Source of the DNA: an uncultured euryarchaeote
GTDB lineage: Archaea; Thermoplasmatota; Poseidoniia; Poseidoniales; Poseidoniaceae
Assembly (NCBI GenBank): GCA_937897365.1
Contig: CALCOP010000144.1
Coordinates: 1 to 32,575, forward strand
Reading direction: 5' to 3'
DNA length: 32,575 bases
This document shows, one piece after another, positions 17,829 through 31,496 of the stretch. The translations under genes and the position numbers were made by a program. The stretch's first letter is position 1. Each line of letters begins with the position of its first letter. The notes beneath the pieces were generated by a model. That model searched no databases. It was not told the DNA's origin and worked only from the letters and a program-made list of their open reading frames with translations.

Positions 17829-19565
17829 ATGGCGAACAAAGTTCCAGAGGGAAAATTGCTCGCTGATGAGGCCACATCTCCTGATTCATCAGGCAAACGC
17901 GACCTCAATTTTGCAGCCGGTTCAACCATTGCTGTGGCGCTCATAACACTTCTCTTTGCTGCAATCTTGGGCCCCTCAGTTTCAAACGGCTTGAATCCAA
18001 ATGAGGTCCAAGAGTCTTACCAAGGTGACCAGGTGTACTTCACTTGGGATGAACCAGAATATATGCCTCGCCATGAGGAATGTATCGATCCTGATAATGG
18101 TCAAGATCCTGGCTATGAAGGCTACGGAATCGGCTATGAACCAAGCCTCTCAATCGACAGTCAAGGAAACCTATTCGTCACTGCGCACAAAGATCTGCGA
18201 TGGGGTGGAGAAGGGAATCCATTTGCTCCGATTATCGGTGGAAACCTCGATACATGGTATGCATGCCAAGACGGAGAAATGACCAGTTGGGATTACTGGG
18301 CTTCATGGTTTTGGATTTCAAACGACGGCGGCAAGACATGGGGTCACGGTGAAAATTTCAACCCCACTCCGGGAAATTTAGGAAATTCAGTTGTCGGTTC
18401 AGCAGCTGGAGCTGGCTCAGAGTGTTTGGGTGATGAAGGGGATATAGCCGTTGATGCGAACGACGTCGTCTATTATCTTGATACAACTCTCGAGGACAAT
18501 TGGTGGCACATGTTTGAAGACGGAGGAACCTCTTACATCTCGCCTTCGGTTTGCGAGCGAATGCAAACGATGGCTGCAGATGACCGACCGTGGGTAACTG
18601 CTCAGGGTGATGGCATTATTCATTATCTTGGAAATTCAGGTGCTTCGCCTCCTGAATGTTCTGGTGATGCAGGGCGTTACTGGTATTATCATTCAGAAAC
18701 TGGACGAGCGCCTTTCTCTCAATGCTACGCAATGCCGGGTGGCTGGTCTACCATCTCCGCTCAAAACCACGGCCCCTATGTTTTTGTTGCTCAAGAAGAT
18801 GCTGATTCGAACACCGGCGTTGTTCACGTTCGAATTAGCGATGAATATGGTCGAGGAACGGGTCCAAGCCCAAGTGATGGCACCTGGCAAGAACCTGTTG
18901 CTGTCGGTCCTCGAGAAGGTAATTGCCCTGAAGGCTACCCGGTAGTCAACAACAATGAGGGTGGTATGGTTGTGGTTGTATGGGCTGATTGTCCGAATGG
19001 AAACACCGGTGCTTGGGAAATGCGCATCGCAGTTTCTTACGATAACGGAAGCAGTTGGCAATCATGGAATGCAACTGCATTTGACCGAGGAATCAACATG
19101 TATCCCTTTGTTTCGATTACTGAAGACCAAGTTGTCAGTTTAGCTTTCTATGGTCTCGATTATGATCAGAAGAACAGCGAAGATGGATATGTTGCTGGTA
19201 AAGATTGGTATCTGTATGCAGGTGCATTACATCACCCGATCGAAGGCGATGAATGGGACTTTAGAATCGTCGATCCAACACCACTGCACACCGTGACCGA
19301 TTACGAGGAAAGCAGTGGTGATACCCATGCCCTCCATGATTTCTTTGAGACGGTGATGTCGCCTGATGGTTCTTGGATGGGAATCGCGTATCAGGAGAAT
19401 GTTGGACTGCATCCATTTGAAGAAAATGAAGAGCAGCGCTACATCAAATTCATTCGTGGCGACATCTCTTCAACTCACAGTGTCGTGACCTCCTCTGATT
19501 CATCTTCGCCAATGATGCCTATCTTTTCACTTGAAGAATTGATTCTCGCTGTTCGCTCTGAATAA
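17829..19565 (+). CDS. Secreted/N-terminally anchored protein with Asp-box (BNR/sialidase-like) repeats
   Basis: N-terminal TM (STIAVALITLLFAAILGPSVSNGL). Asp-box motifs SNDGGKTWG and SYDNGSSWQ. Beta-propeller-like pattern SIDSQGNLFVTAH, AVDANDVVYYLD. Confidence 0.78.
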   Translation: MANKVPEGKLLADEATSPDSSGKRDLNFAAGSTIAVALITLLFAAILGPSVSNGLNPNEVQESYQGDQVYFTWDEPEYMPRHEECIDPDNGQDPGYEGYGIGYEPSLSIDSQGNLFVTAHKDLRWGGEGNPFAPIIGGNLDTWYACQDGEMTSWDYWASWFWISNDGGKTWGHGENFNPTPGNLGNSVVGSAAGAGSECLGDEGDIAVDANDVVYYLDTTLEDNWWHMFEDGGTSYISPSVCERMQTMAADDRPWVTAQGDGIIHYLGNSGASPPECSGDAGRYWYYHSETGRAPFSQCYAMPGGWSTISAQNHGPYVFVAQEDADSNTGVVHVRISDEYGRGTGPSPSDGTWQEPVAVGPREGNCPEGYPVVNNNEGGMVVVVWADCPNGNTGAWEMRIAVSYDNGSSWQSWNATAFDRGINMYPFVSITEDQVVSLAFYGLDYDQKNSEDGYVAGKDWYLYAGALHHPIEGDEWDFRIVDPTPLHTVTDYEESSGDTHALHDFFETVMSPDGSWMGIAYQENVGLHPFEENEEQRYIKFIRGDISSTHSVVTSSDSSSPMMPIFSLEELILAVRSE

Positions 19566-19571
19566 TTTTCA

Positions 19572-19590
19572 TGACACCCTACGGGTGTCA
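19572..19590. promoter_or_regulatory. Perfect 8-3-8 inverted repeat TGACACCC-TAC-GGGTGTCA upstream of TSP3 protein gene
   Basis: Read directly. Lies 45 nt before the likely ATG at 19636 and 6 nt after the stop of the previous gene. Paired with the related hairpin at 25084-25102. Confidence 0.6.
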
Positions 19591-19635
19591 ACGATAAGGC
19601 GCGGTGTTCATAGGCACACTACCTATTGGATAACC

Positions 19636-22215
19636 ATGCTCGCGAAGCGGTTGATGTCCATCTGCCTCGCCGCGATGATGCTCTCAATGTTGCCCTCAGT
19701 CTCCGCTGACGACGATATTCAGAGCGCAAGCCCACTTACCGATGGTGTTACGTCCAACGGTTATGTTTGTGATCCGGATTGCGATGCCGGTCGAGACAAA
19801 GCCGATTTTTGGAAAATTGAAGCTCGTAAGGGCGATATCGTTCAAGTTTCTTTTTCCGGTTCTATGAACGGACCTGCCTGGTGGTGCCCTGGTGATGGAT
19901 GGACCGGACGATTTTCTCTACTTGATGCCCAAGGAAGCGTTATCGTTGACACAATGGCAGATGATAGTGCAGCATCCAAAGTTCTCTCCACAACTGTGAA
20001 TACTGCAAGTTATGTGTATGTCAAAGTCAAAGCCGACGATTCTTGGTGTAACGATGGTTTCGATTATACACTCACACCTTCAATCGATAAAGCAAATCGA
20101 GATTACGATGAAGACGGCTTCATCGATAACGATGATGACTGTGATGACCTTGTAGGAACCTCCACGAATGACCGAAAAGGTTGTACTGATTCAGATTCAG
20201 ATGGATGGTCTGACCCTGATTCAGGATGGGGCCCCCAAAATGGAGCTGATGCTTTCGTCAATGAAAATTCACAGTGGTTGGACAGCGATAACGATGGTTA
20301 TGGTGATAATCTCGAAGGGTTCGAAGGTGATCATTGTCCGTTCCGAAGAGGATATTCTGTTCTTGACCGCTACGGTTGTCTTGATTCTGATGGTGATGGC
20401 TATTCAAACGAAGACCCAGGTGGTTTAGATGGTGTAACTGCGTGGTATGCCCACCCGGTTGGGTTTGGGGATGCATTCCCGCTTGATGCAACTCAATGGA
20501 ACGATACCGATGCCGATGGCTACGGAGATAATTGGGAAGATGGCGATTGGAACATTACTCGAGAAGGATGGGGAATTGGTTCGTGGATGTTTAATGCTTC
20601 AACGCCCGATGCTTGCCCGTTCATTACCGGTACTTCAACCGGAGATAGGTATGGTTGCACCGATACGGATGGTGATGGATTTTCCGATGGTGATGTAAAC
20701 TGGACGAAGGCCAACGGTTCTGATGCATTCCCACTTGAACCAACACAATGGCAAGACCGTGATTTTGATGGTTGGGGTGACAACCAATCCGAAGGTGCTC
20801 TTCAAGTCGATGATTTCCCTGACAATCCAACCCAATGGGCTGATTCGGATGAAGATGGTTGGGGCGATAACCAATCATATGGCGCCACTCAAATTGATGA
20901 TTTCCCATTCATAGAATCTCAATATCGAGACACAGATGGAGATGGATATGGCGATAACCTTGGTGGTTTTGAGGGGGACGTTTGCGTATTCTCCTCTGCT
21001 GAAGAAGTCGAATCCGGCTGGATATCTCGTTACGATCGTCTTGGATGCCGTGACGTCGATTCAGACGGCTATTCAGATCCAAGCAGTGATTGGATTGCTC
21101 ATCCAAATGGTTTTGCGGACGCATTCCCGAATGACGAGAGTCAATGGTATGATACCGATGATGATGGTTATGGAGATAACCTCGAATATTTCGATGGCCA
21201 AACACTCCGAGTTGCTTATCGGGGTGATGGATGCAGAACCACAGAAGGTTCCTCCACTTTCGACCGTTGGGGATGTCCTGACAGTGATGAAGATGGATGG
21301 TCTGATCCTACAAGTTCATGGTTAGCAAGTCCTGGAGGAAAAGGCGATGCATGGCCTATGGACGTGACACAATGGCACGATATTGATGGTGACGGGCGCG
21401 GTGACAACCCTCTTGGGACAACTGCGGATGTTTGCCCAACCCAAGCAGGAACTTCCGTCGGACCTTCCTCAGGTGGCGACCGATGGGGTTGCCCAGATAC
21501 GGACGGCGACGGATGGTCAGATTTAGGTGATGCATTCATACATGAGCCCACTCAATACAGGGATACAGATGGTGATGGCTTTGGAGATTCTGTAGACGGT
21601 AATCAGGGTGATGCGTGCCCAGAAGTGCGTGGAACCTCACTTCTCGACCGTCTTGGCTGCCGTGATACCGATGGTGATGGTTGGTCAGACCCGACAGATT
21701 CCTGGCAAGCTCACCCTTATGGTTCTGCAGACTCTTTCCCTACTGAATCTCTTCAATGGCGTGATTCAGACGGTGATGGCTTTGGCGACGTCCCATTAGG
21801 TGCTCTTCGCGATGATTGTCCTGACGTTGCAGGAATTTCAATGCGCGATGCTCAAGGCTGCGTCGATTCCAATGGAGACGGTTGGTCCGATTCTTATGGA
21901 GAATTCGCCGCCGCAGTTGCAATTCTTGGAGAAGACCCAGCAGCGTCCTGGTTGACATACCTCGTGATTGGATTTGGATTCATTTTTGGAGCGACTTTAG
22001 CCCTGATTGTTCGTAAAAACAAGGATGGAGAAATGATACAAGACGAATTGTTTGAATCTAAAGAATCTGCTGAACTTGATGCCCTTACAATGGAATCTAT
22101 GCCTGCCCCTATGATTCCTCTTGAGGACCTCCCCCCTCTCCCCATACCGGAGGGAATGGAGATGCCTTTGCCTCCGCTACCTGAACCTGAACAAGGAGGT
22201 GAGGTCAATGAGTGA
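19636..22215 (+). CDS. TSP3-type calcium-binding-repeat surface protein with C-terminal TM and proline-rich cytoplasmic tail
   Basis: Signal peptide MLAKRLMSICLAAMMLSMLPSVSADD. About nine '(T/S)QW.D.D.DG(Y/W)GDN' units interleaved with 'C.D.DGDGWSDP' units. TM LTYLVIGFGFIFGATLALIVRKNK. Tail MPAPMIPLEDLPPLPIPEGMEMPLPPLPEPEQ. Confidence 0.9.
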   Translation: MLAKRLMSICLAAMMLSMLPSVSADDDIQSASPLTDGVTSNGYVCDPDCDAGRDKADFWKIEARKGDIVQVSFSGSMNGPAWWCPGDGWTGRFSLLDAQGSVIVDTMADDSAASKVLSTTVNTASYVYVKVKADDSWCNDGFDYTLTPSIDKANRDYDEDGFIDNDDDCDDLVGTSTNDRKGCTDSDSDGWSDPDSGWGPQNGADAFVNENSQWLDSDNDGYGDNLEGFEGDHCPFRRGYSVLDRYGCLDSDGDGYSNEDPGGLDGVTAWYAHPVGFGDAFPLDATQWNDTDADGYGDNWEDGDWNITREGWGIGSWMFNASTPDACPFITGTSTGDRYGCTDTDGDGFSDGDVNWTKANGSDAFPLEPTQWQDRDFDGWGDNQSEGALQVDDFPDNPTQWADSDEDGWGDNQSYGATQIDDFPFIESQYRDTDGDGYGDNLGGFEGDVCVFSSAEEVESGWISRYDRLGCRDVDSDGYSDPSSDWIAHPNGFADAFPNDESQWYDTDDDGYGDNLEYFDGQTLRVAYRGDGCRTTEGSSTFDRWGCPDSDEDGWSDPTSSWLASPGGKGDAWPMDVTQWHDIDGDGRGDNPLGTTADVCPTQAGTSVGPSSGGDRWGCPDTDGDGWSDLGDAFIHEPTQYRDTDGDGFGDSVDGNQGDACPEVRGTSLLDRLGCRDTDGDGWSDPTDSWQAHPYGSADSFPTESLQWRDSDGDGFGDVPLGALRDDCPDVAGISMRDAQGCVDSNGDGWSDSYGEFAAAVAILGEDPAASWLTYLVIGFGFIFGATLALIVRKNKDGEMIQDELFESKESAELDALTMESMPAPMIPLEDLPPLPIPEGMEMPLPPLPEPEQGGEVNE

Positions 22216-23530
22216 GTCGAAACTTCTTGTTCCGATACTTCTTGTCATGCTCTTCTTTGGTTGTATCGTCATGCCTTTGGGCATAGTGGAAGAGGTAGAA
22301 GCAGAAACTTCTGCTGTTGATGATGCTCTTTCTGGCGAAGGAATCACGTTAGTTGCATTGCGTAATGATACTATGGACATGAACCAGGATGGTGAACCTG
22401 ATGCCATACGAGTGGTTGTCATCCTCAACTCAAGTGCAGAATGGACTGAAATTGAATTGCGATTATATGGACTTCACAAGGACAAAGAAGTTCGTGAAGA
22501 TCAATATATGGCCTTCACCGGACAATCCAATGCAAGTTTGGTTTACGATGCTTGGTCACAAGGTGAACACTCTTTGCGCCTTGAATTTATCAACCAAGAT
22601 GGGAATAAAATTACCTCAATTCAATTGCCTACCTATGTCCTTACTCCTGCATTGAAAACTCCGCAAATCATGCTTGATTTGGATTCGCCAACTCGAATTG
22701 AGACGGGAGACTCGTGCTCAATCAATCGCATTTTTGCCGATGAAACCGGCCCTCGATATGACGCCTCTGGAACTCGAACGTTCTCTGGTGCGCCGTTCAC
22801 AGTTCTCGATAATCAAACCATTTTGGATTGCTCTCACTGGCCTGCGGGAGAATATGTGCTCAAAGAAGCCTATCGAAATGATTTAGGCCAAACTGCAGAA
22901 TACTGGCTCAATCTCACTATTCACAATCGCCCCGCACCTGCGTTTTCGCTGTCTGTGATTGGGAATGAAAATGTCACAGATAATCCTTGTGAAATCACAA
23001 TGGTGTCGAACATGCTCGGAGTTGATTTCTCTACCTTCGATAAAATTTGGACCGTTCAAGGTACGGAATTACCCGGTAATCGAAGTATCACTTACGACTG
23101 TACGGTGTTGCCTGCAGGTGTTCATCTGATTACTCTGGAAGTCATCAACAACGAAAAGATTCGAACCGTTCATGGTGTAAATCTTGTTCGACTCCCCGGA
23201 CTCAACCTGTCACAAGAAGAGGCAGCGACACTCCCGAGCCGTTCATTCGGTGACGAAACACCGACTGAATCTGTTGGCTGGTTTTCGATCGGAATTCTCG
23301 GATTAATTGTTTGTGTCGTTGTATTTGTGCTTCTTGTTCGAATGAAAGAAGATACAAGTGCTTCTTCTTTACGGAATCTTGGGCCTATGCCTATGATTCT
23401 GGCCGATGGTTCACCTGATGCTCAAGGTCTTCCAACAATGACAGATGCAGAAGGAGTCCTTTGGCGCCAACATCCAGACGGTACAACGGATTGGTGGGAT
23501 GACCAACTTCGAATTTGGCATAAATGGTGA
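22208..23530 (+). CDS. Single-pass membrane protein with WW/DUF2510-like Trp-rich C-terminal motif
   Basis: AGGAGGTGA SD precedes ATG 22208, which overlaps the previous stop (ATGAGTGA). Signal KLLVPILLVMLFFGCIVMPLGIV, beta-rich ectodomain, TM IGILGLIVCVVVFVLLVRMKE, C-terminus GVLWRQHPDGTTDWWDDQLRIWHKW. Confidence 0.85.
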   Translation: MSESKLLVPILLVMLFFGCIVMPLGIVEEVEAETSAVDDALSGEGITLVALRNDTMDMNQDGEPDAIRVVVILNSSAEWTEIELRLYGLHKDKEVREDQYMAFTGQSNASLVYDAWSQGEHSLRLEFINQDGNKITSIQLPTYVLTPALKTPQIMLDLDSPTRIETGDSCSINRIFADETGPRYDASGTRTFSGAPFTVLDNQTILDCSHWPAGEYVLKEAYRNDLGQTAEYWLNLTIHNRPAPAFSLSVIGNENVTDNPCEITMVSNMLGVDFSTFDKIWTVQGTELPGNRSITYDCTVLPAGVHLITLEVINNEKIRTVHGVNLVRLPGLNLSQEEAATLPSRSFGDETPTESVGWFSIGILGLIVCVVVFVLLVRMKEDTSASSLRNLGPMPMILADGSPDAQGLPTMTDAEGVLWRQHPDGTTDWWDDQLRIWHKW

Positions 23531-23541
23531 GGTGCTTACCA

Positions 23542-24396
23542 GTGTTAGACATTCTTCTCTTCACTCTTGCCTCATTTGTAATCTTCTGTGCACTAATTTG
23601 GCTGGTGAAAGTCCGTCCCCGAATACCACAAAATGAAGCTGAATGGAATTCTGATTGTGAATTTTTAACCACAACGACAATCGATGGTGACATGATTACT
23701 TTCCGAAACGTGCGTGATTTCTTCTGGCGCACAACCCGTGATCGTGACGAAGCATGGGTTGATGAGGTGATCGTCAATGTTGAAGAATTGAAAGATATTT
23801 GGTTTATGGTGGATCACTTTCATTCAATACATGGAATGGCACATACATACTTGACGTTTGAATTTAATGACGGAACTTGCCTTTCCTTTTCGTTCGAGGC
23901 CCGCCGAAGAGTGAAGCAACGATACCACCCTTGGGCCGGACTTTGGCGCAATTTTGAACTCTACCTTTTGGTTGGTTTTGAGCATGACCTCACCGGTCTG
24001 CGAACCAACGCGAGAGGAAATAAAGATTACATGTTCCGAGCCATTACTCCACCAGGTAAGGACAAAGATATGCTTCGCAGGCTTGCCAATAAAGCAAACC
24101 AGTTGGCTGAAAACCCCGAATGGTATCATTCCTTTCTTACGACTTGTAATACCTCGATTGTCCGGATGGTGAATCGAGTCACACCGGGGCGTGTGCCGTT
24201 CTTGTGGCGTAATTTTCTTCCAGGATATACGCCTAAGGCTGCGCTAAAACTCGGTTTGATTGAGGATTGGGGCGGTTTTGAGGTAACTCTTGAGAAAGCC
24301 CGAATCGATGAAGTCGCACGTGAATGGGACGGAAAGGGCAGTTACTCTGCAATGTTACGAGAGCATTTACCCCCTTCAACGATCCAAGAAAAGTAA
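23542..24396 (+). CDS. DUF4105-like membrane-anchored protein
   Basis: N-terminal TM LDILLFTLASFVIFCALIWLVKVRP, then NVRDFFWRTTRDRDEAWVDEVIVNVEELKDIWFMVDHF...MAHTYLTFEFNDGTCLSFSFEARR...YHSFLTTCNTS, which matches my recollection of DUF4105. GTG start at 23542 has GAGGTG 7 nt upstream; alternative ATG at 23524. Confidence 0.78.
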   Translation: MLDILLFTLASFVIFCALIWLVKVRPRIPQNEAEWNSDCEFLTTTTIDGDMITFRNVRDFFWRTTRDRDEAWVDEVIVNVEELKDIWFMVDHFHSIHGMAHTYLTFEFNDGTCLSFSFEARRRVKQRYHPWAGLWRNFELYLLVGFEHDLTGLRTNARGNKDYMFRAITPPGKDKDMLRRLANKANQLAENPEWYHSFLTTCNTSIVRMVNRVTPGRVPFLWRNFLPGYTPKAALKLGLIEDWGGFEVTLEKARIDEVAREWDGKGSYSAMLREHLPPSTIQEK

Positions 24397-25008
24397 CAGT
24401 TGGCCTGAATTATATTTGATCTCAAGACATTCTTCCTTAGTTTGGTTGTGTAGACCTTGCGTACCCGCCGTTAATGTTTCATCTTTCAAATTCCATCGAG
24501 CTCCAGATACCTGAATGCCTTCAACTTCACCAATAGCGAATAAGGAAAAGGACCCTCCAATTTCTATAGAACAGTTGCTATAGCCCTCTTTTGGTAGTAA
24601 TTCAATTGTGCACTGCGTTGTGTGTAATCGGGTGTTTGCTGGAACTTCGCACAAGGCTAAAATTGCAGCAAATTGATGTGAGAAATCTCCACCTTCAATT
24701 CCTATGATTTCGATGGAAGATGCGCCGTTTTCAACACTCCATCGGATGGCTTTGACCAAATCATTCTCATTTTGGCTTTCTTGTCGAACAACCTGAATTT
24801 TTGAATTACGGTGAATTTGATGCTGAGCATCTGATGAAAGGCTATCCATATCGCCGATTACGGTTTGCATTTCGACCTGATTTCTGAGGCATTGCTGTGC
24901 AGCTCCGTCACACGCTACAATATGGTTCGCATCCATAGCCAACTGTTGCCAGATATCTCGTTCAGGCCAAACTCCGTTCGCCGTGATCAGATAAGTCTGC
25001 TCCGCCAT
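24376..25008 (-). CDS. Thiamine pyrophosphokinase-like (TPK / 6-HMP-pyrophosphokinase fold) protein
   Basis: VACDGAAQQCL...VIGDMDSLS...VVRQESQNENDLVKAIRW...IIGIEGGDFSHQFAAILAL matches TPK catalytic motifs. Convergent 21-bp overlap with the DUF4105-like gene. Confidence 0.8.
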   Translation of the reverse strand: MAEQTYLITANGVWPERDIWQQLAMDANHIVACDGAAQQCLRNQVEMQTVIGDMDSLSSDAQHQIHRNSKIQVVRQESQNENDLVKAIRWSVENGASSIEIIGIEGGDFSHQFAAILALCEVPANTRLHTTQCTIELLPKEGYSNCSIEIGGSFSLFAIGEVEGIQVSGARWNLKDETLTAGTQGLHNQTKEECLEIKYNSGQLLLFLDR

Positions 25009-25083
25009 GTATTGCCCAAAGAGTCCATCTTGTCAAACCCATGCATAAGACGGTAAGTCAATTCGATTTGGTATTTCTGTGAC

Positions 25084-25102
25084 TGACCCCCTACGGGGGT
25101 CA
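25084..25102. promoter_or_regulatory. Perfect 8-3-8 inverted repeat TGACCCCC-TAC-GGGGGTCA upstream of giant TSP3/FG-GAP protein gene
   Basis: Read directly. Same TAC loop and TGAC/GTCA ends as 19572-19590, with one compensatory pair change. Confidence 0.6.
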
Positions 25103-25106
25103 ATGG

Positions 25107-28100
25107 ATGCAAACTTCAAGAAGCGTTTTCAATGAAGGCAACCGACAAGGGGGCATGGCGGCGTCGGGCAGCAGACCTTTTCCAACAATTTCTTTGCTGC
25201 TCACTCTGTTATTTGTCGCCCATCTTTTCTCGCCGTTCATGCAGAATCCCTCGGATTCCGAATCAGAACTAAATGAAATTTTGATTCACTCTTCAAGTGA
25301 ATATGTGCCTCTCAGTGACGCATACAGCCATGACTTCGCAGGTACGAGTCTCGCTTTTGATGGATTGGATGATGCCACGGTTCGTGAAGAATCTGCGCTC
25401 GATATTTGGATGTCTGAGATGTTGGCTGTCTTACCGAATGAAACGATGGGGGTTCCAGATATTCAACTTCGCCATGATGAAGGCTTTGATGTATGTTGGA
25501 CAACATTGGAAGGGAATGTGTATGTTGGTTCGCTTGAAGGAGGAAATTCTTCCTATTCATCGGTCCAATCAAGTTGGAGTATGCATCTTGTCGATTCAGT
25601 AACTCCTTCCAGCCAAAGCATGCCACTTGTTGATTGCGCTCTTGCTGTAAATGAGGACGGACGCCAGTACGTTCTGTATGCAGACGGTCACAACATCAAA
25701 TCAGCACACATCGCTTATCCCAACTCTGTATTTTCTGAACTTTCATGGCAGAAAATCACGATTCGATACGATGTTCAGCCTACGGATATACAGATGGTTT
25801 TGCTTCCGAATCAACTCGAATATGCAGTATTTCGAGATGTGAATGGCTCTCTTTGGCAACTCAATTACAGCGGTAACATATGGTATGACAATCTGCTCGA
25901 TGTTGGGCCAATTGGTCATTCGATTGAACTTGCAATGGATGACAATGGTGTCGCACATATTCTCTACACTGCTGGTGAAGAAGTTCGTTTGATTCGTTAT
26001 GATGGCTCCAGTTACGATCGACGTGTTCTCGTCCGAGACTCAAATCTTGGTGTTCATCTTGGAATGGGATTAGACTCGAATGCCGTTGAACAAATTGCTA
26101 CTACTTCTGTCACTGATGACGGTACCGGAAATATGAACACCAATATTCAACTCCTTCGCAGTCTTTCAGGGCAAGACGAAGGACGCATAGATCCTGTACC
26201 TACGCATTCTGATGTGAACAGAGACTCTGCACAACAAACCTCTTCCCTTGATTTGGAAGAGGGTGTTTCTGTTATGGCAGACATCAACGGTGACGGTTTT
26301 GATGACTTTATTTTTACAGAACCTGAGTATTCAAACGGCAACCAAGAAACCGGTCGCGTTTCTGTTTCTTTTGGGTCGGTCAACGGTCTCTCTGACCTTG
26401 GTTTGCTCTCTTCATGTAACGGCTCTCAAGCCGGTCAGCGCTACGGTTCTGGCCTTGCGGTTGCGGATTACAACGGTGATGGATTGCATGATATCGCTCT
26501 TGGTTCACCTGGATGGAATTCCACTTTGAGCGAGGGAAGTGGAGATAATGGCCGAATCGAAATTCTCCTTGGAAATTCAACGACTGGATTCAGTTGCTCA
26601 AATCCGTGGTGGAACGTGACTGGAAATCCTGGTGAAGCACTTGGTTGGAAAATTGAAGCAATTGATGGGATGAACGGAGATGGATTTGCAGACCTGGCTG
26701 CTGTGGCCGCGAATCATTCGGTTGTCGTTGCCACGATTCCCAACGAAATTGTTCACAAAGGTAAGATTGCCATATACAAAGGAACAGCCTCCTCTATGGA
26801 ACATGTTCGCAACATTACTCAAACCCAAGAATCGACTTTACTCGGTCGCTCATTGAGCGGATCAGGTGATCTGAACGGTGACGGATTTGATGATTTACTT
26901 GTTTCGAATGCTGCAAGTTTTGATTCATTCAGTGGCTTTCCTTCAATCGAAATATTCTTTGGCACTTCTTTTGGTTTCAACGGAACTGCAGACCAAAAAA
27001 TTCTCTCTACTGTTCAAGGCAAGATGTTCGGTCATACCATCGACTTCATCGGTGATATCAACTCTGATGGTTTTGACGATATGATGTTTTCAGAAGTGTA
27101 TAACGGAACCGGCGGCTATCAAGCCGGAAAGGTTTGGATGTATCATGGGTCCGCTTCTGGAATTCATTCTGCTGTCCCTAACTGGACAAAGCTGGGTGAT
27201 TCAAGCAATGCATTGCTTGGAAGGATGTTTATGGGTGCTGGAGACGTCAACGAAGACGGATACGACGATATTCTGCTCATGGAACAGGGCGCTACTCGTA
27301 ACGGTAAGGTCGATTTGATTCTTGGTTCTGCAAGCGGCCTAAGTACTGAATCGGAATTGCTCGCAACGGGTGCATCTCAACAATATCGAGGTTTAGCGAT
27401 GGCAACTCTTGGAGATGTTGATGGCGACGGATTAAACGAGATTTGCCTCAGCTCTCGGCAAACAGTTTCCAGCTCGTCATTCAGAGTTGTTTATGACTTC
27501 TATTCTGAACGGGATTGGGAATCAACCACGTTTACTTTCGATACGGATGAACTTGAATTCCTCGATGTTTCCACATCAAGTCGTGGTGAAGCAAGCATGC
27601 TCTTATCGTTCCAAAACTGGGAGTCACTCCATTTCGTTGAACATGTCGACGATGGAACTGCAACCGGTATTTGGGCAGATAATGTTCTTTCAAACGCTCT
27701 TCTTAATTCGACGAACTTCGCTTTCGCAGGAACCAGTTCCGGTCGGCCAATCGTTCTTTCAACGGATGGCGGTCACGCTCTCAAGATGCAGACGACTACG
27801 AGTTATACTGCGGTTGAGCAAAGCATCTTGACGTCCGGTACCATGGGCGCATTGCTTGGTTCTGCTCTTGATTCCGATGGTCATCAGCACCTTGCTCACG
27901 CCACCTCTGCAGTTGGTGGCTACCAAATATTTGCCTCCATAGAAGACGATTCAGGCTGGTCCACCTCTCAAGTCGCTACGAATCTTGATCTTGCAGACCC
28001 GCTGGTTGTTCTAACCGACCAAAGCGATGACACACATATTCTCTACCGTGACTCAACCGATAATCAACTGATAGTTTCGCATTATGATGGCAGTTGGACT

Positions 28101-31100
28101 GCTTCAATGATTGGTTCTCAAGGAGAAGTAGTTTCCAGTGATTTCCCAGCAATGCTTCTTCCGAGTGGTGAAATTATTACGGCCCTGATTTCAGATGACG
28201 GCACAAATCATAACCTCAGCGTTTGGATATACGATGGTACCAGTGTGGAATCAAGTACGGTTACTGGCCTTACTGACCTTTCTTCAAGCATTAAAATCGC
28301 TATGACGGATGATGATACTATTTTGCTTGCAACGCTGACATCAACCGGTGTATTGAATCTCTATGAACGCCAACTCAACCAATCTACTTGGGCTGAGAAC
28401 TCTGTGTGGAATGCGACCACTCTCACCCAACCAAACGGTGGAATCAATACCTTCAATCTCGATCTTACCGGTGGTTCTCATCCTGCCATGGCTGTTCGAG
28501 CTGATTCGACCAGCGATGTGCTTTATGTTCGTAACAGTTCGCTTGATTGGCATTCGTTTGGAACTCAACCTGCTTCGACCATTGATGGTGCATGGGACCT
28601 TTCTTCTGAAGACGGAACATACATCTTGATGACCAGTGTTGGCACAAACAACCTTCTAACTTGGAACAGTCTCAATACGCTCACAAGTTCCCCAACTCAA
28701 AGTTCTCCTGAGTATTTCTGGAGCACTCTTTCATTTGGAGATGTTACGGCTACTGGCTCAGTTGGTCTTTACACAGACTCAAACGAAACGCTCCATCTCG
28801 CTATACAGGACAGCGTTCTTTGGGACGTCGAAGTGTTGCGATTGTATCCTGATGCAGATAGAGACCTTGTTTTCGATCTTGTAGACGATTTGCCTCTGCT
28901 TGGAAATCAGTGGGCTGACAGCGATGGTGACGGCTATGGAGATAATGCCTTAGGGCCTTTGTACGACGCTTGTGAGACGACCAATGCAAATTCGTCATAC
29001 TACACATACGGATGTCTTGATTATGATAACGATGGATATGCGGATATTGATGATGCTTGTAATGACGACCCTGGAGAGTCTTGGATTGACCGTAAGGGAT
29101 GCGATGACTACGACCAGGACGGCTGGTCAAATAACAAATTCAATTACCTTGACGGTGATGTTTTCATCTTTAACTGGAAACTCGCCTTAGACAGTGACGG
29201 CGATGGATACGGGGATAATTCTGGTCGAGATTGCTGTATCACTGAATACGATTCAACTCAGCCGGATGGTGACTTGTTCCCGTTCAATCCATCGCAATAC
29301 AAAGATCAAGATGGCGATGGTTGGGGTGATAATTCTTCAGATCTGGTTCAAGGTGATAATTGTAAGTTTGATTGGGGTGCTTCTTGGCGAGACCGTAACG
29401 GTTGTCTTGATTCAGATTTAGATGGTTCTTCCGACCCTGGAAATTATGCAGGGATTCCATGGACGATTGAAGACGGAGCCGATGCTTGGCCGTTTGATAG
29501 TACACAGTGGGCTGATTCAGATGGCGACGGGTATGGCGATAACAGTTCACAAGGTGCGACCAATCCCGATAGTTATCCTGACAATATTGCTGCTGCTGAA
29601 GATAACGATTCAGATGGATATCCTGACCGATGGACGCAGTATTACAATCTTTCAGATAACATCACAAGTAACGATGGCGATGGTTTGATTCTTGATGCTT
29701 GCCCAGGTGTATTTGGCAATTCGACCAATCCTTATCCAGGATGTCCCGACACAGACGGCGATGGATGGATGAACTCTGAAGACGCATTCCCACTCGAAGC
29801 AACTCAATGGCTCGATTTCGATGAAGATGGATTTGGTGATAACCCAGCGGGATATCAAGCCGATGAATGTCCAACCGTTGCAGGTGTTCTCGAAGGAACT
29901 AGCCCTACCGAAGGTGGTACTGGAATTGGTTGCCGATTTATTGACGATTCAGACGATGATGGAGATTTTGTATCAAATGCCGAAGATACGTGTCCCAACA
30001 CTGATGCGGGTTTATCGGTAAACCAATTTGGTTGTGCTGACAACCAACTTGATGATGACAGCGATTTGGTTTACAATGACCTCGACCTTTGTCCACAAAC
30101 TCCGATGGGAGTTGTTGTTGATGCAAGTGGGTGCAGTGATGAACAACTTCTCACCGATGATGATTTTGATGGAGTGAGCGGTCCTTCAGACCTTTGCCCT
30201 GACACACTTTATGACCAGCGAAACGAAGTCGATGAGAATGGCTGTTCAGAATCACAGCGCGATACTGATGGTGATGGTGTAAAAGATGACGTGGATGTTT
30301 GCCCCGATACCCCTCAGGGTTATCCTGTTCTGGTCAACGGCTGCACTGATGATTCTGCCTTTGAACAAGATTTTGATGGAGACGGATATTCAGGTGAATA
30401 CACCTACACGCTCAATCAGACCAGTGGTTTGCGTGAAAACCAATCCGGTGATGCCTTCCCTACGAACAGTTCACAGTGGTTTGACCGAGATGGAGATGGC
30501 TATGGTGACAATTCAAACGGAACATTCTTTGATTTCTGTCCGAACGAATTTGGAACATCTTCTCTCGAGAATATCCTCGGATGTTTGGATGATGGTGACG
30601 GATATGCTGATTTTACAGAGCCTCCATATCTTGCAGGTGATGCAACGCAATGGTTTGATGATGACTACGATGGTTTTGGAGACAATCCAAACGGAACATC
30701 TCCAGACTTGTGTTTGGATACACCACCAAGTTTGGCATCTCAAGTTGATGAAAATGGTTGTATTCTTTCCCAACTGGATTCAGATGATGACGGAGTGATG
30801 GATAATCTCGACCAGTGCCCGAGTGAACCAAAAGGAGAAGATGGTTATGCTGACGGCTGCCCACTAAGAAATTCAAATTCCGATGACGGAGCATCTTCCG
30901 GATTGGGGACCTCGACAATTGTGATTTCAGTGATTGCAGGAATTATCGTTTTCCTTGCGATTGCAGTCATTTTGATACGACGACAAAACGATGATTTTGA
31001 TTATGATGACGATGATGAAGATGAAGATTGGGATGATGATGAAGATGAACCTCTTCCATTTAGAAGCAGTAGCAGTGCGCAAGCATCTCCACCATCCAGA

Positions 31101-31496
31101 GGACCTACAAGTGGTCCGAAGGGCGGACCTGGTCCTTCTCGAGGTGCTCCGAAAGGACCACAAGGGCGAGGGCCAAGTTCCTCACCGGCGCAAACGAAAC
31201 CACCTCGCAGTAAGGAATCTCCATCAAAACGTGCATCTACAAGACCTTCATTCGCTTTTGATCAACCATCGAAAGAGGAAGACGATGGAACAGCAAAGGT
31301 TCGAAAAGCGACGCTAAATATCGATTTATCAATCTTTGAAGATTGGCAGATAGAAGACCGCGAATCAGCTGCAGATTGGGTTCGAAGTTCCCTCGACGAT
31401 GGAGATGATGAGCGTTCTATTATGATGCAGTTGCAAGAAACAGGATGGACTGCGCCGCAATCTCGTGCTATATTCAATATGGGTCGGAGCCGTTAG
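25107..31496 (+). CDS. Giant surface protein: seven FG-GAP repeats, flanking beta-propeller-like repeats, TSP3 repeats, TM, disordered charged linker and C-terminal UBA-like helical motif
   Basis: Signal FPTISLLLTLLFVAHLFSP (possible start 25155). FG-GAP units (VMADINGDGFDDFIF, VADYNGDGLHDIALGSP, SGDLNGDGFDDLLVSN, etc.). TSP3 units (TQWADSDGDGYGDN). TM STIVISVIAGIIVFLAIAVILIRR. Tail ADWVRSSLDDGDDERSIMMQLQETGWTAPQSRAIF. Confidence 0.9.
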   Translation: MQTSRSVFNEGNRQGGMAASGSRPFPTISLLLTLLFVAHLFSPFMQNPSDSESELNEILIHSSSEYVPLSDAYSHDFAGTSLAFDGLDDATVREESALDIWMSEMLAVLPNETMGVPDIQLRHDEGFDVCWTTLEGNVYVGSLEGGNSSYSSVQSSWSMHLVDSVTPSSQSMPLVDCALAVNEDGRQYVLYADGHNIKSAHIAYPNSVFSELSWQKITIRYDVQPTDIQMVLLPNQLEYAVFRDVNGSLWQLNYSGNIWYDNLLDVGPIGHSIELAMDDNGVAHILYTAGEEVRLIRYDGSSYDRRVLVRDSNLGVHLGMGLDSNAVEQIATTSVTDDGTGNMNTNIQLLRSLSGQDEGRIDPVPTHSDVNRDSAQQTSSLDLEEGVSVMADINGDGFDDFIFTEPEYSNGNQETGRVSVSFGSVNGLSDLGLLSSCNGSQAGQRYGSGLAVADYNGDGLHDIALGSPGWNSTLSEGSGDNGRIEILLGNSTTGFSCSNPWWNVTGNPGEALGWKIEAIDGMNGDGFADLAAVAANHSVVVATIPNEIVHKGKIAIYKGTASSMEHVRNITQTQESTLLGRSLSGSGDLNGDGFDDLLVSNAASFDSFSGFPSIEIFFGTSFGFNGTADQKILSTVQGKMFGHTIDFIGDINSDGFDDMMFSEVYNGTGGYQAGKVWMYHGSASGIHSAVPNWTKLGDSSNALLGRMFMGAGDVNEDGYDDILLMEQGATRNGKVDLILGSASGLSTESELLATGASQQYRGLAMATLGDVDGDGLNEICLSSRQTVSSSSFRVVYDFYSERDWESTTFTFDTDELEFLDVSTSSRGEASMLLSFQNWESLHFVEHVDDGTATGIWADNVLSNALLNSTNFAFAGTSSGRPIVLSTDGGHALKMQTTTSYTAVEQSILTSGTMGALLGSALDSDGHQHLAHATSAVGGYQIFASIEDDSGWSTSQVATNLDLADPLVVLTDQSDDTHILYRDSTDNQLIVSHYDGSWTASMIGSQGEVVSSDFPAMLLPSGEIITALISDDGTNHNLSVWIYDGTSVESSTVTGLTDLSSSIKIAMTDDDTILLATLTSTGVLNLYERQLNQSTWAENSVWNATTLTQPNGGINTFNLDLTGGSHPAMAVRADSTSDVLYVRNSSLDWHSFGTQPASTIDGAWDLSSEDGTYILMTSVGTNNLLTWNSLNTLTSSPTQSSPEYFWSTLSFGDVTATGSVGLYTDSNETLHLAIQDSVLWDVEVLRLYPDADRDLVFDLVDDLPLLGNQWADSDGDGYGDNALGPLYDACETTNANSSYYTYGCLDYDNDGYADIDDACNDDPGESWIDRKGCDDYDQDGWSNNKFNYLDGDVFIFNWKLALDSDGDGYGDNSGRDCCITEYDSTQPDGDLFPFNPSQYKDQDGDGWGDNSSDLVQGDNCKFDWGASWRDRNGCLDSDLDGSSDPGNYAGIPWTIEDGADAWPFDSTQWADSDGDGYGDNSSQGATNPDSYPDNIAAAEDNDSDGYPDRWTQYYNLSDNITSNDGDGLILDACPGVFGNSTNPYPGCPDTDGDGWMNSEDAFPLEATQWLDFDEDGFGDNPAGYQADECPTVAGVLEGTSPTEGGTGIGCRFIDDSDDDGDFVSNAEDTCPNTDAGLSVNQFGCADNQLDDDSDLVYNDLDLCPQTPMGVVVDASGCSDEQLLTDDDFDGVSGPSDLCPDTLYDQRNEVDENGCSESQRDTDGDGVKDDVDVCPDTPQGYPVLVNGCTDDSAFEQDFDGDGYSGEYTYTLNQTSGLRENQSGDAFPTNSSQWFDRDGDGYGDNSNGTFFDFCPNEFGTSSLENILGCLDDGDGYADFTEPPYLAGDATQWFDDDYDGFGDNPNGTSPDLCLDTPPSLASQVDENGCILSQLDSDDDGVMDNLDQCPSEPKGEDGYADGCPLRNSNSDDGASSGLGTSTIVISVIAGIIVFLAIAVILIRRQNDDFDYDDDDEDEDWDDDEDEPLPFRSSSSAQASPPSRGPTSGPKGGPGPSRGAPKGPQGRGPSSSPAQTKPPRSKESPSKRASTRPSFAFDQPSKEEDDGTAKVRKATLNIDLSIFEDWQIEDRESAADWVRSSLDDGDDERSIMMQLQETGWTAPQSRAIFNMGRSR

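Follow-up and report, generated by a model that had tools for sequence, protein, structure and literature searches.

The window, the whole 32,575-nt stretch of contig CALCOP010000144.1 from an uncultured euryarchaeote, harbors two perfect inverted repeats, confirmed at the exact coordinates given in the preliminary description. The first, W1 (19572–19590, unstranded), reads TGACACCC-TAC-GGGTGTCA and lies at −64 to −46 from the ATG of a gene (19636–22215, + strand) encoding a TSP3-repeat protein of 859 aa with a signal peptide, for which a Pfam search returned no match. The second, W2 (25084–25102, unstranded), reads TGACCCCC-TAC-GGGGGTCA and is located between two divergent promoters, at −71 to −53 from the ATG of a giant FG-GAP/TSP3 surface-protein gene (25155–31496, + strand; 2113 aa, signal peptide, Pfam FG-GAP). 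Its divergent neighbor (24376–25008, − strand) encodes thiamin pyrophosphokinase (TPK; Pfam TPK_catalytic and TPK_B1_binding). Both palindromes have perfect 8-bp arms and a 3-nt TAC loop. As had been described, their flanks are unrelated and they differ at one base pair, A-T vs C-G, such that both arms changed. By chance, a shuffled window should contain 0.03 matches to a combined W1/W2 pattern with up to three mismatches, and only W1 and W2 match it in the window; the exact pattern has no further copy in the 1.85-Mb draft genome.

Gene starts were taken from longest open reading frames and conservation. Among those proposed originally, 19636 (with a conserved ATGCTCGCGAAG block) and 25155 are backed by conservation, whereas 25107 falls within the promoter spacer of the giant gene. 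The core-promoter model is built on a motif, TT[GC]A[AT], that was learned without reference to the palindromes and has modes at −29 and approximately −45 from the ATG; within this model, the two modes indicate predicted leaderless and short-leader transcripts, respectively. In the G056 stretches L089–L108, the −29 mode goes with leaderless genes and the −45 mode with a short leader carrying GGAG, with C at −1. The predicted leaderless core element of the TSP3 gene, TTCATA (19607–19612, + strand), sits at −29 and is identified by the promoter PWM as well as by a conserved GTGTTCATAGGCACAC block in relatives. The predicted element of TPK, TTTGACAA (25030–25037, − strand), is likewise at −29 and leaderless, and is assigned from its sequence, a conserved TTTGTCAA block, and the genome-wide motif position; it is outside the three best PWM hits for TPK, and position and conservation carry the assignment. 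The predicted core promoter of the giant gene (25115–25132, + strand) combines TTCAAG at −40 with the more widely conserved TTTTCAA at −29. W2 is therefore flanked by two opposed −29 core-promoter-like elements, those of TPK and the giant gene, so that neither predicted mRNA contains it.

A search of 100 relatives recovers the W2 arms TGACCCCC...GGGGGTCA in 56 of the 60 genomes of the genus, the window's own included. Three of the four genomes with no match are 57–74% complete, and the fourth (G005) is 86% complete. Among 57 entries (G002 has two copies), the loop is TAC/GTA in 43, TAT in 10, TAA in three, and TTT in one. Wherever flanks were checked, the site lies between divergent TPK and FG-GAP/TSP3 giant genes, after an Lnb_N gene, and the distance from W2 to the start codon stays near 52 nt. 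Identity over the N-terminal part of the giant drops to 29–35% for the most distant members and the spacers around W2 vary freely in sequence, while the arms are unchanged. Genera g1 and g13 have a single copy of the exact arms per genome, and the other genera sampled from the class have no copy even when one mismatch is allowed. The invariance of the arms within g1 and g13 suggests that the sequence may be read as well as the pairing. The W2 spacer is constant at 3 nt within g1 and measures 4 nt in two genomes of g13. The corresponding TPK|giant gap of sister genus g15 contains CGGCCCCC...GGGGGCCG, which differs from W2 by two compensatory pair changes and encloses loops of 3–5 nt (TAT, TTTA, TACAA, TATTA, and TAATA). 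No such palindrome is present in this gap in genus g14.

Orthologous copies of W1 occur at 12 related loci, with TGACACCC-like arms upstream of the conserved GTGTTCATAGGCACAC block and TAC, GTA, or TTA as the loop; G056 has no W1 copy. The distance from W1 to the promoter drifts among orthologues. Two of the copies (L086 and L087) harbor A.C mismatches on the gene strand, which become wobble pairs on the opposite strand only. The BNR-like gene upstream of W1 (window positions 17829–19565) is absent in L025 (G004), where a glycosyltransferase gene is found instead and W1 is retained.

W1 and W2 are members of a scattered family of promoter-side palindromes with approximately 12–25 copies per genome. 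The dispersed family suspected at the outset is supported, and the window's own genome has 10 more intergenic palindromes with a CCC-TAC/GTA-GGG core and other arms. The core is common to the family, while the outer arms are gene-specific and perfectly paired. CCC/GGG served as the search seed, such that its fixation across loci is partly a matter of ascertainment; the data from orthologous loci are free of that bias. The census combines pattern searches with 400 kb of G056 stretches and is based on sampling of metagenome-assembled genomes (MAGs). CCCTACGGG occurs 16 times in G000 (reversed control, 4), 20 times in the complete G056, and 41 times in G063. Overall counts exceed controls in some genomes only, G056 not being one of them, and the signal resides in the palindromes: 45 of 50 noncoding CCCTACGGG sites from three genomes extend to perfect arms of at least 6 bp, while none of 11 non-palindromic coding sites has 6-bp arms. 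Five more palindromes fell under coding sequence by a crude ORF tiling, at least one of which (L067) has an orthologue in a G000 gap. At the 50 noncoding sites, arm pairs 4–6 comprise 138 Watson–Crick pairs, one G.T, one A.C, and 10 others, and 26 different trinucleotides adjoin CCC, making the outer arms private to each gene. No other recurring GC-rich intergenic class with a 3-nt loop was seen in the 400 kb of G056, many stretches of which were chosen around known sites, so that the result bounds loop type and not frequency. In genus g5 (G063, G067, G079, G093, and G099), CCCTACGGG occurs approximately 40 times per genome, roughly 2–3 times the reversed control; the G063 sites are mostly palindromes, many of them ahead of housekeeping genes.

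The arms change in pairs at orthologous loci, in keeping with the conserved, covarying element that had been proposed. In approximately nine gene pairs orthologous between G000 and G056, core and stem are the same apart from an occasional outer pair. At the TGT|ABC-transporter ATPase locus of the sister family f2, GACTCCC/GGGAGTC is replaced by AACTCCC/GGGAGTT and by GACACCC/GGGTGTC, all compensatory, with loops of 2–5 nt. Loops flip between TAC and GTA, TAT and ATA, or TAA and TTA at orthologous sites, and these inversions show that loop orientation is neutral.

Family sites lie 5–100 nt ahead of genes in codirectional or divergent arrangement, and none of approximately 47 sites is in a convergent gap (P about 0.001 by gap count). 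They have no strand polarity; gene-strand TAC and GTA loops stand at approximately 10:7 by hand count at codirectional G063 sites. Relative to the computational promoter model, the palindrome is upstream of the TATA-like box at W1, W2, the subtilase gene, and several secreted-protein genes, and over the predicted start site at ThrRS, PAP2, and DUF835. At PurL, the thermosome, and the f2 ABC-ATPase, it begins at about the predicted start site, and in these three cases it could be transcribed.

The targets in G000 and G056 include the W1 and W2 genes, several other secreted giants, a subtilase, an RCC1-like protein, and an M14 peptidase, as well as SPP, PAP2, ThrRS, DHS, PurL, and DUF835. In G063 and its relatives, which belong to a sister family, the targets are S13, S15, the thermosome, GAPDH, FKBP, ferredoxin/flavodoxin, and a subtilase. 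Of the 14 listed G056 target genes, 13 encode at least 650 aa, compared with about 9–13% of ORFs. The link to surface proteins drawn in the preliminary description therefore holds in the window's own genus, where the palindromes are enriched near large secreted proteins, but not as specificity for TSP3 or surface-protein genes; it is an enrichment in one genus and no rule. Tabulated across relatives, placement is promoter-side and orthologous, but product class is not confined to surface proteins. A regulon of surface proteins only is ruled out by the presence of ThrRS, DHS, PurL, ribosomal proteins, the thermosome, and GAPDH.

W1 and W2 are interpreted, with a probability of roughly 0.55, as DNA-level inverted-repeat promoter elements situated upstream in leaderless archaeal promoters. 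This interpretation builds on what is directly observed, namely position, conservation, compensatory arm changes, tolerance of loop length, and absence of strand polarity. The element would consist of a CCC-TA-rich loop-GGG core and gene-specific paired arms, and W2 would serve the back-to-back promoter pair of TPK and the giant gene. It would be read in DNA, most likely as a hairpin or cruciform favored by negative supercoiling, or else as a dyad with which a DNA-bending or dimeric protein makes contact. Occupancy of the element could determine how strong the promoter is, either from upstream of the TATA-like box (W1, W2, and subtilase) or over the start site (ThrRS, PAP2, and DUF835). Both strands fold as 8-bp DNA hairpins (−8.0 and −7.3 kcal/mol), and perfect arms of at least 6 bp, a short spacer, and pairing kept by compensatory change, all properties of cruciform or hairpin DNA, are present here. 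Gyrase B is encoded in 23 of the 26 genomes searched, and its presence in most relatives makes negative supercoiling plausible. Cruciform extrusion of GC-rich arms of 6–8 bp is energetically demanding. A broader proposal is that a genome-wide, structure-read DNA element operates at a dozen or more promoters, with private paired stems around CCC-TA-GGG that are extruded or recognized as hairpins, coupling transcription to supercoiling; this proposal is tentative and, as it stands, rather doubtful.

A DNA-level stem-loop, or a protein reader of the inverted repeat with a flexible center, fits best because pairing is kept while the sequence differs by gene and loop length varies, and also because sites occur in either orientation, G.U pairs are very rare, and W1 and W2 are outside the predicted transcripts. 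The chief competitor, itself unlikely, holds that one or several dimeric transcription regulators use the palindromes as operators, with one subunit on each half-site, and that dyad recognition accounts for the symmetric change between W1 and W2. The lack of strand polarity agrees with this, activators and repressors occupy positions like those seen here (upstream of TATA or over the start site), and across 56 genomes of the genus W2 retains invariant arms around a 3-nt spacer. The arms also cluster weakly, with TGAC- at W1, W2, L069, and L072 and CAAC- at ThrRS and PAP2, the latter two palindromes lying at an equal distance of 15–16 nt from the TATA-like box. However, a single regulator needs no self-complementary arbitrary outer arms, let alone 26 trinucleotides beside CCC, and CCC/GGG, the search seed, is the only shared part of the half-sites. 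Half-site spacing is 3 nt in g1, 3–5 nt at W2 orthologues in g13 and g15, and 2–5 nt at the f2 ABC locus, and promoter distance drifts at W1 and DHS. A simple operator sits badly with this gene-specific sequence and variable loop length, and the classical single-regulator palindrome envisaged earlier is a poor fit. Less probable again is an RNA stem-loop in the 5′ leader that would influence stability, control translation, or act by attenuation. RNA stems typically show compensatory changes and loops of variable length, the f2 ABC-ATPase, PurL, and thermosome copies are placed after the predicted start site and before the ribosome-binding site, and one DHS copy (L234) has two T.G wobble pairs. 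These points are outweighed at W1 and W2, for which the leader element suggested previously is unlikely since both are upstream of predicted start sites, W2 being between two divergent promoters. Across the family, the near equality of gene-strand TAC and GTA loops, the scarcity of G.U pairs, and the gene-strand A.C mismatches in W1 copies run against an RNA, and an Rfam search of the window gave no RNA family match above the gathering score.

Two non-regulatory origins are far less credible. Arm homogenization and spacer inversion are a signature of polymerase template switching at inverted repeats (PMC8604942), and the repeated spacer inversions at orthologous sites match it. That the palindromes are a mutational signature only, with arms perfected and spacers inverted but no function, is nevertheless very improbable, given arms that stay unchanged where flanking spacer and proteins are highly diverged, the promoter-side bias, and the absence from convergent gaps; template switching probably explains the loop flips but not the maintenance of the arms. 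Also very improbable is a small mobile or REP-like dispersed repeat. Several copies per genome do share a core, but their positions are orthologous across genera, the nine or so G000/G056 gene pairs keep core and stem, and the arms are private to genes with no common flanks. Near-identical copies at non-orthologous places, the mark of such a repeat, are not what is seen. An intrinsic terminator, already thought unlikely for the second copy in the preliminary description, is rejected: W1 is followed by ACGATAAGG and W2 by ATGGATGC, neither with a T-run, both are absent from the terminator scan, W2 lies between divergent genes, and no convergent gap is represented among the approximately 47 sites.

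The DNA-level promoter elements proposed here have partial likenesses among known systems. A GC-rich hairpin, often just behind the upstream stop codon, is shared with intrinsic terminators; in contrast to these, W1 and W2 have no U-tract and the family occurs between divergent genes, none having been found between convergent ones. Archaeal dyad operators, e.g., Lrp/AsnC-type TGAAANNNTTTCA sites, are inverted repeats with a 3-bp spacer near BRE/TATA or the start site. W1 and W2 resemble them in dyad form, spacer, and location, but the palindromes here have no common arm consensus and their spacer measures 2–5 nt. Promoter-proximal inverted repeats with cruciform potential have been treated in a review (PMC9180970) and a genome survey (PMC13155455); perfect arms, a short A/T-containing spacer, and promoter location are held in common with them, whereas a family with a common CCC-TA-GGG core, gene-private arms conserved across a genus, and compensatory changes at orthologous loci sets the present elements apart. 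No description of this element came up when the literature was searched for CCCTACGGG palindromes and for promoter or operator motifs of marine group II.

Cis-regulation in these uncultured archaea is almost unknown. The analysis provides a promoter-linked element family that spans two families of the order, a computational core-promoter model, and concrete target lists (giant surface proteins, ThrRS, DHS, thermosome, ribosomal proteins, and gyrase B), and raises the question of regulation via DNA-level stem-loops instead of conventional operators or leader RNAs.

In ThrRS genes of the genus (L070 4740–6764, − strand; L109–L138), CAACCCC-GTA-GGGGTTG is directly ahead of the AAGGAG ribosome-binding site and is preceded by a conserved GGTTTGATGA promoter block; two distant ThrRS members have no palindrome. 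In L148 (4934–4962; G099), the same core and loop appear in a terminator-like setting, with CTTTTTT directly after GGGCCGGACCCCCTACGGGGGTCCGGCCC. Sister genus g5 has a version with 11-bp arms, TGAGGACCCCCTACGGGGGTCCTCA, just upstream of DNA gyrase B (L146 4975–4999; L147 4828–4852), the gene being identified by Pfam in L146; gyrase B is a target in G093 and, by its matching N-terminus, in G099.
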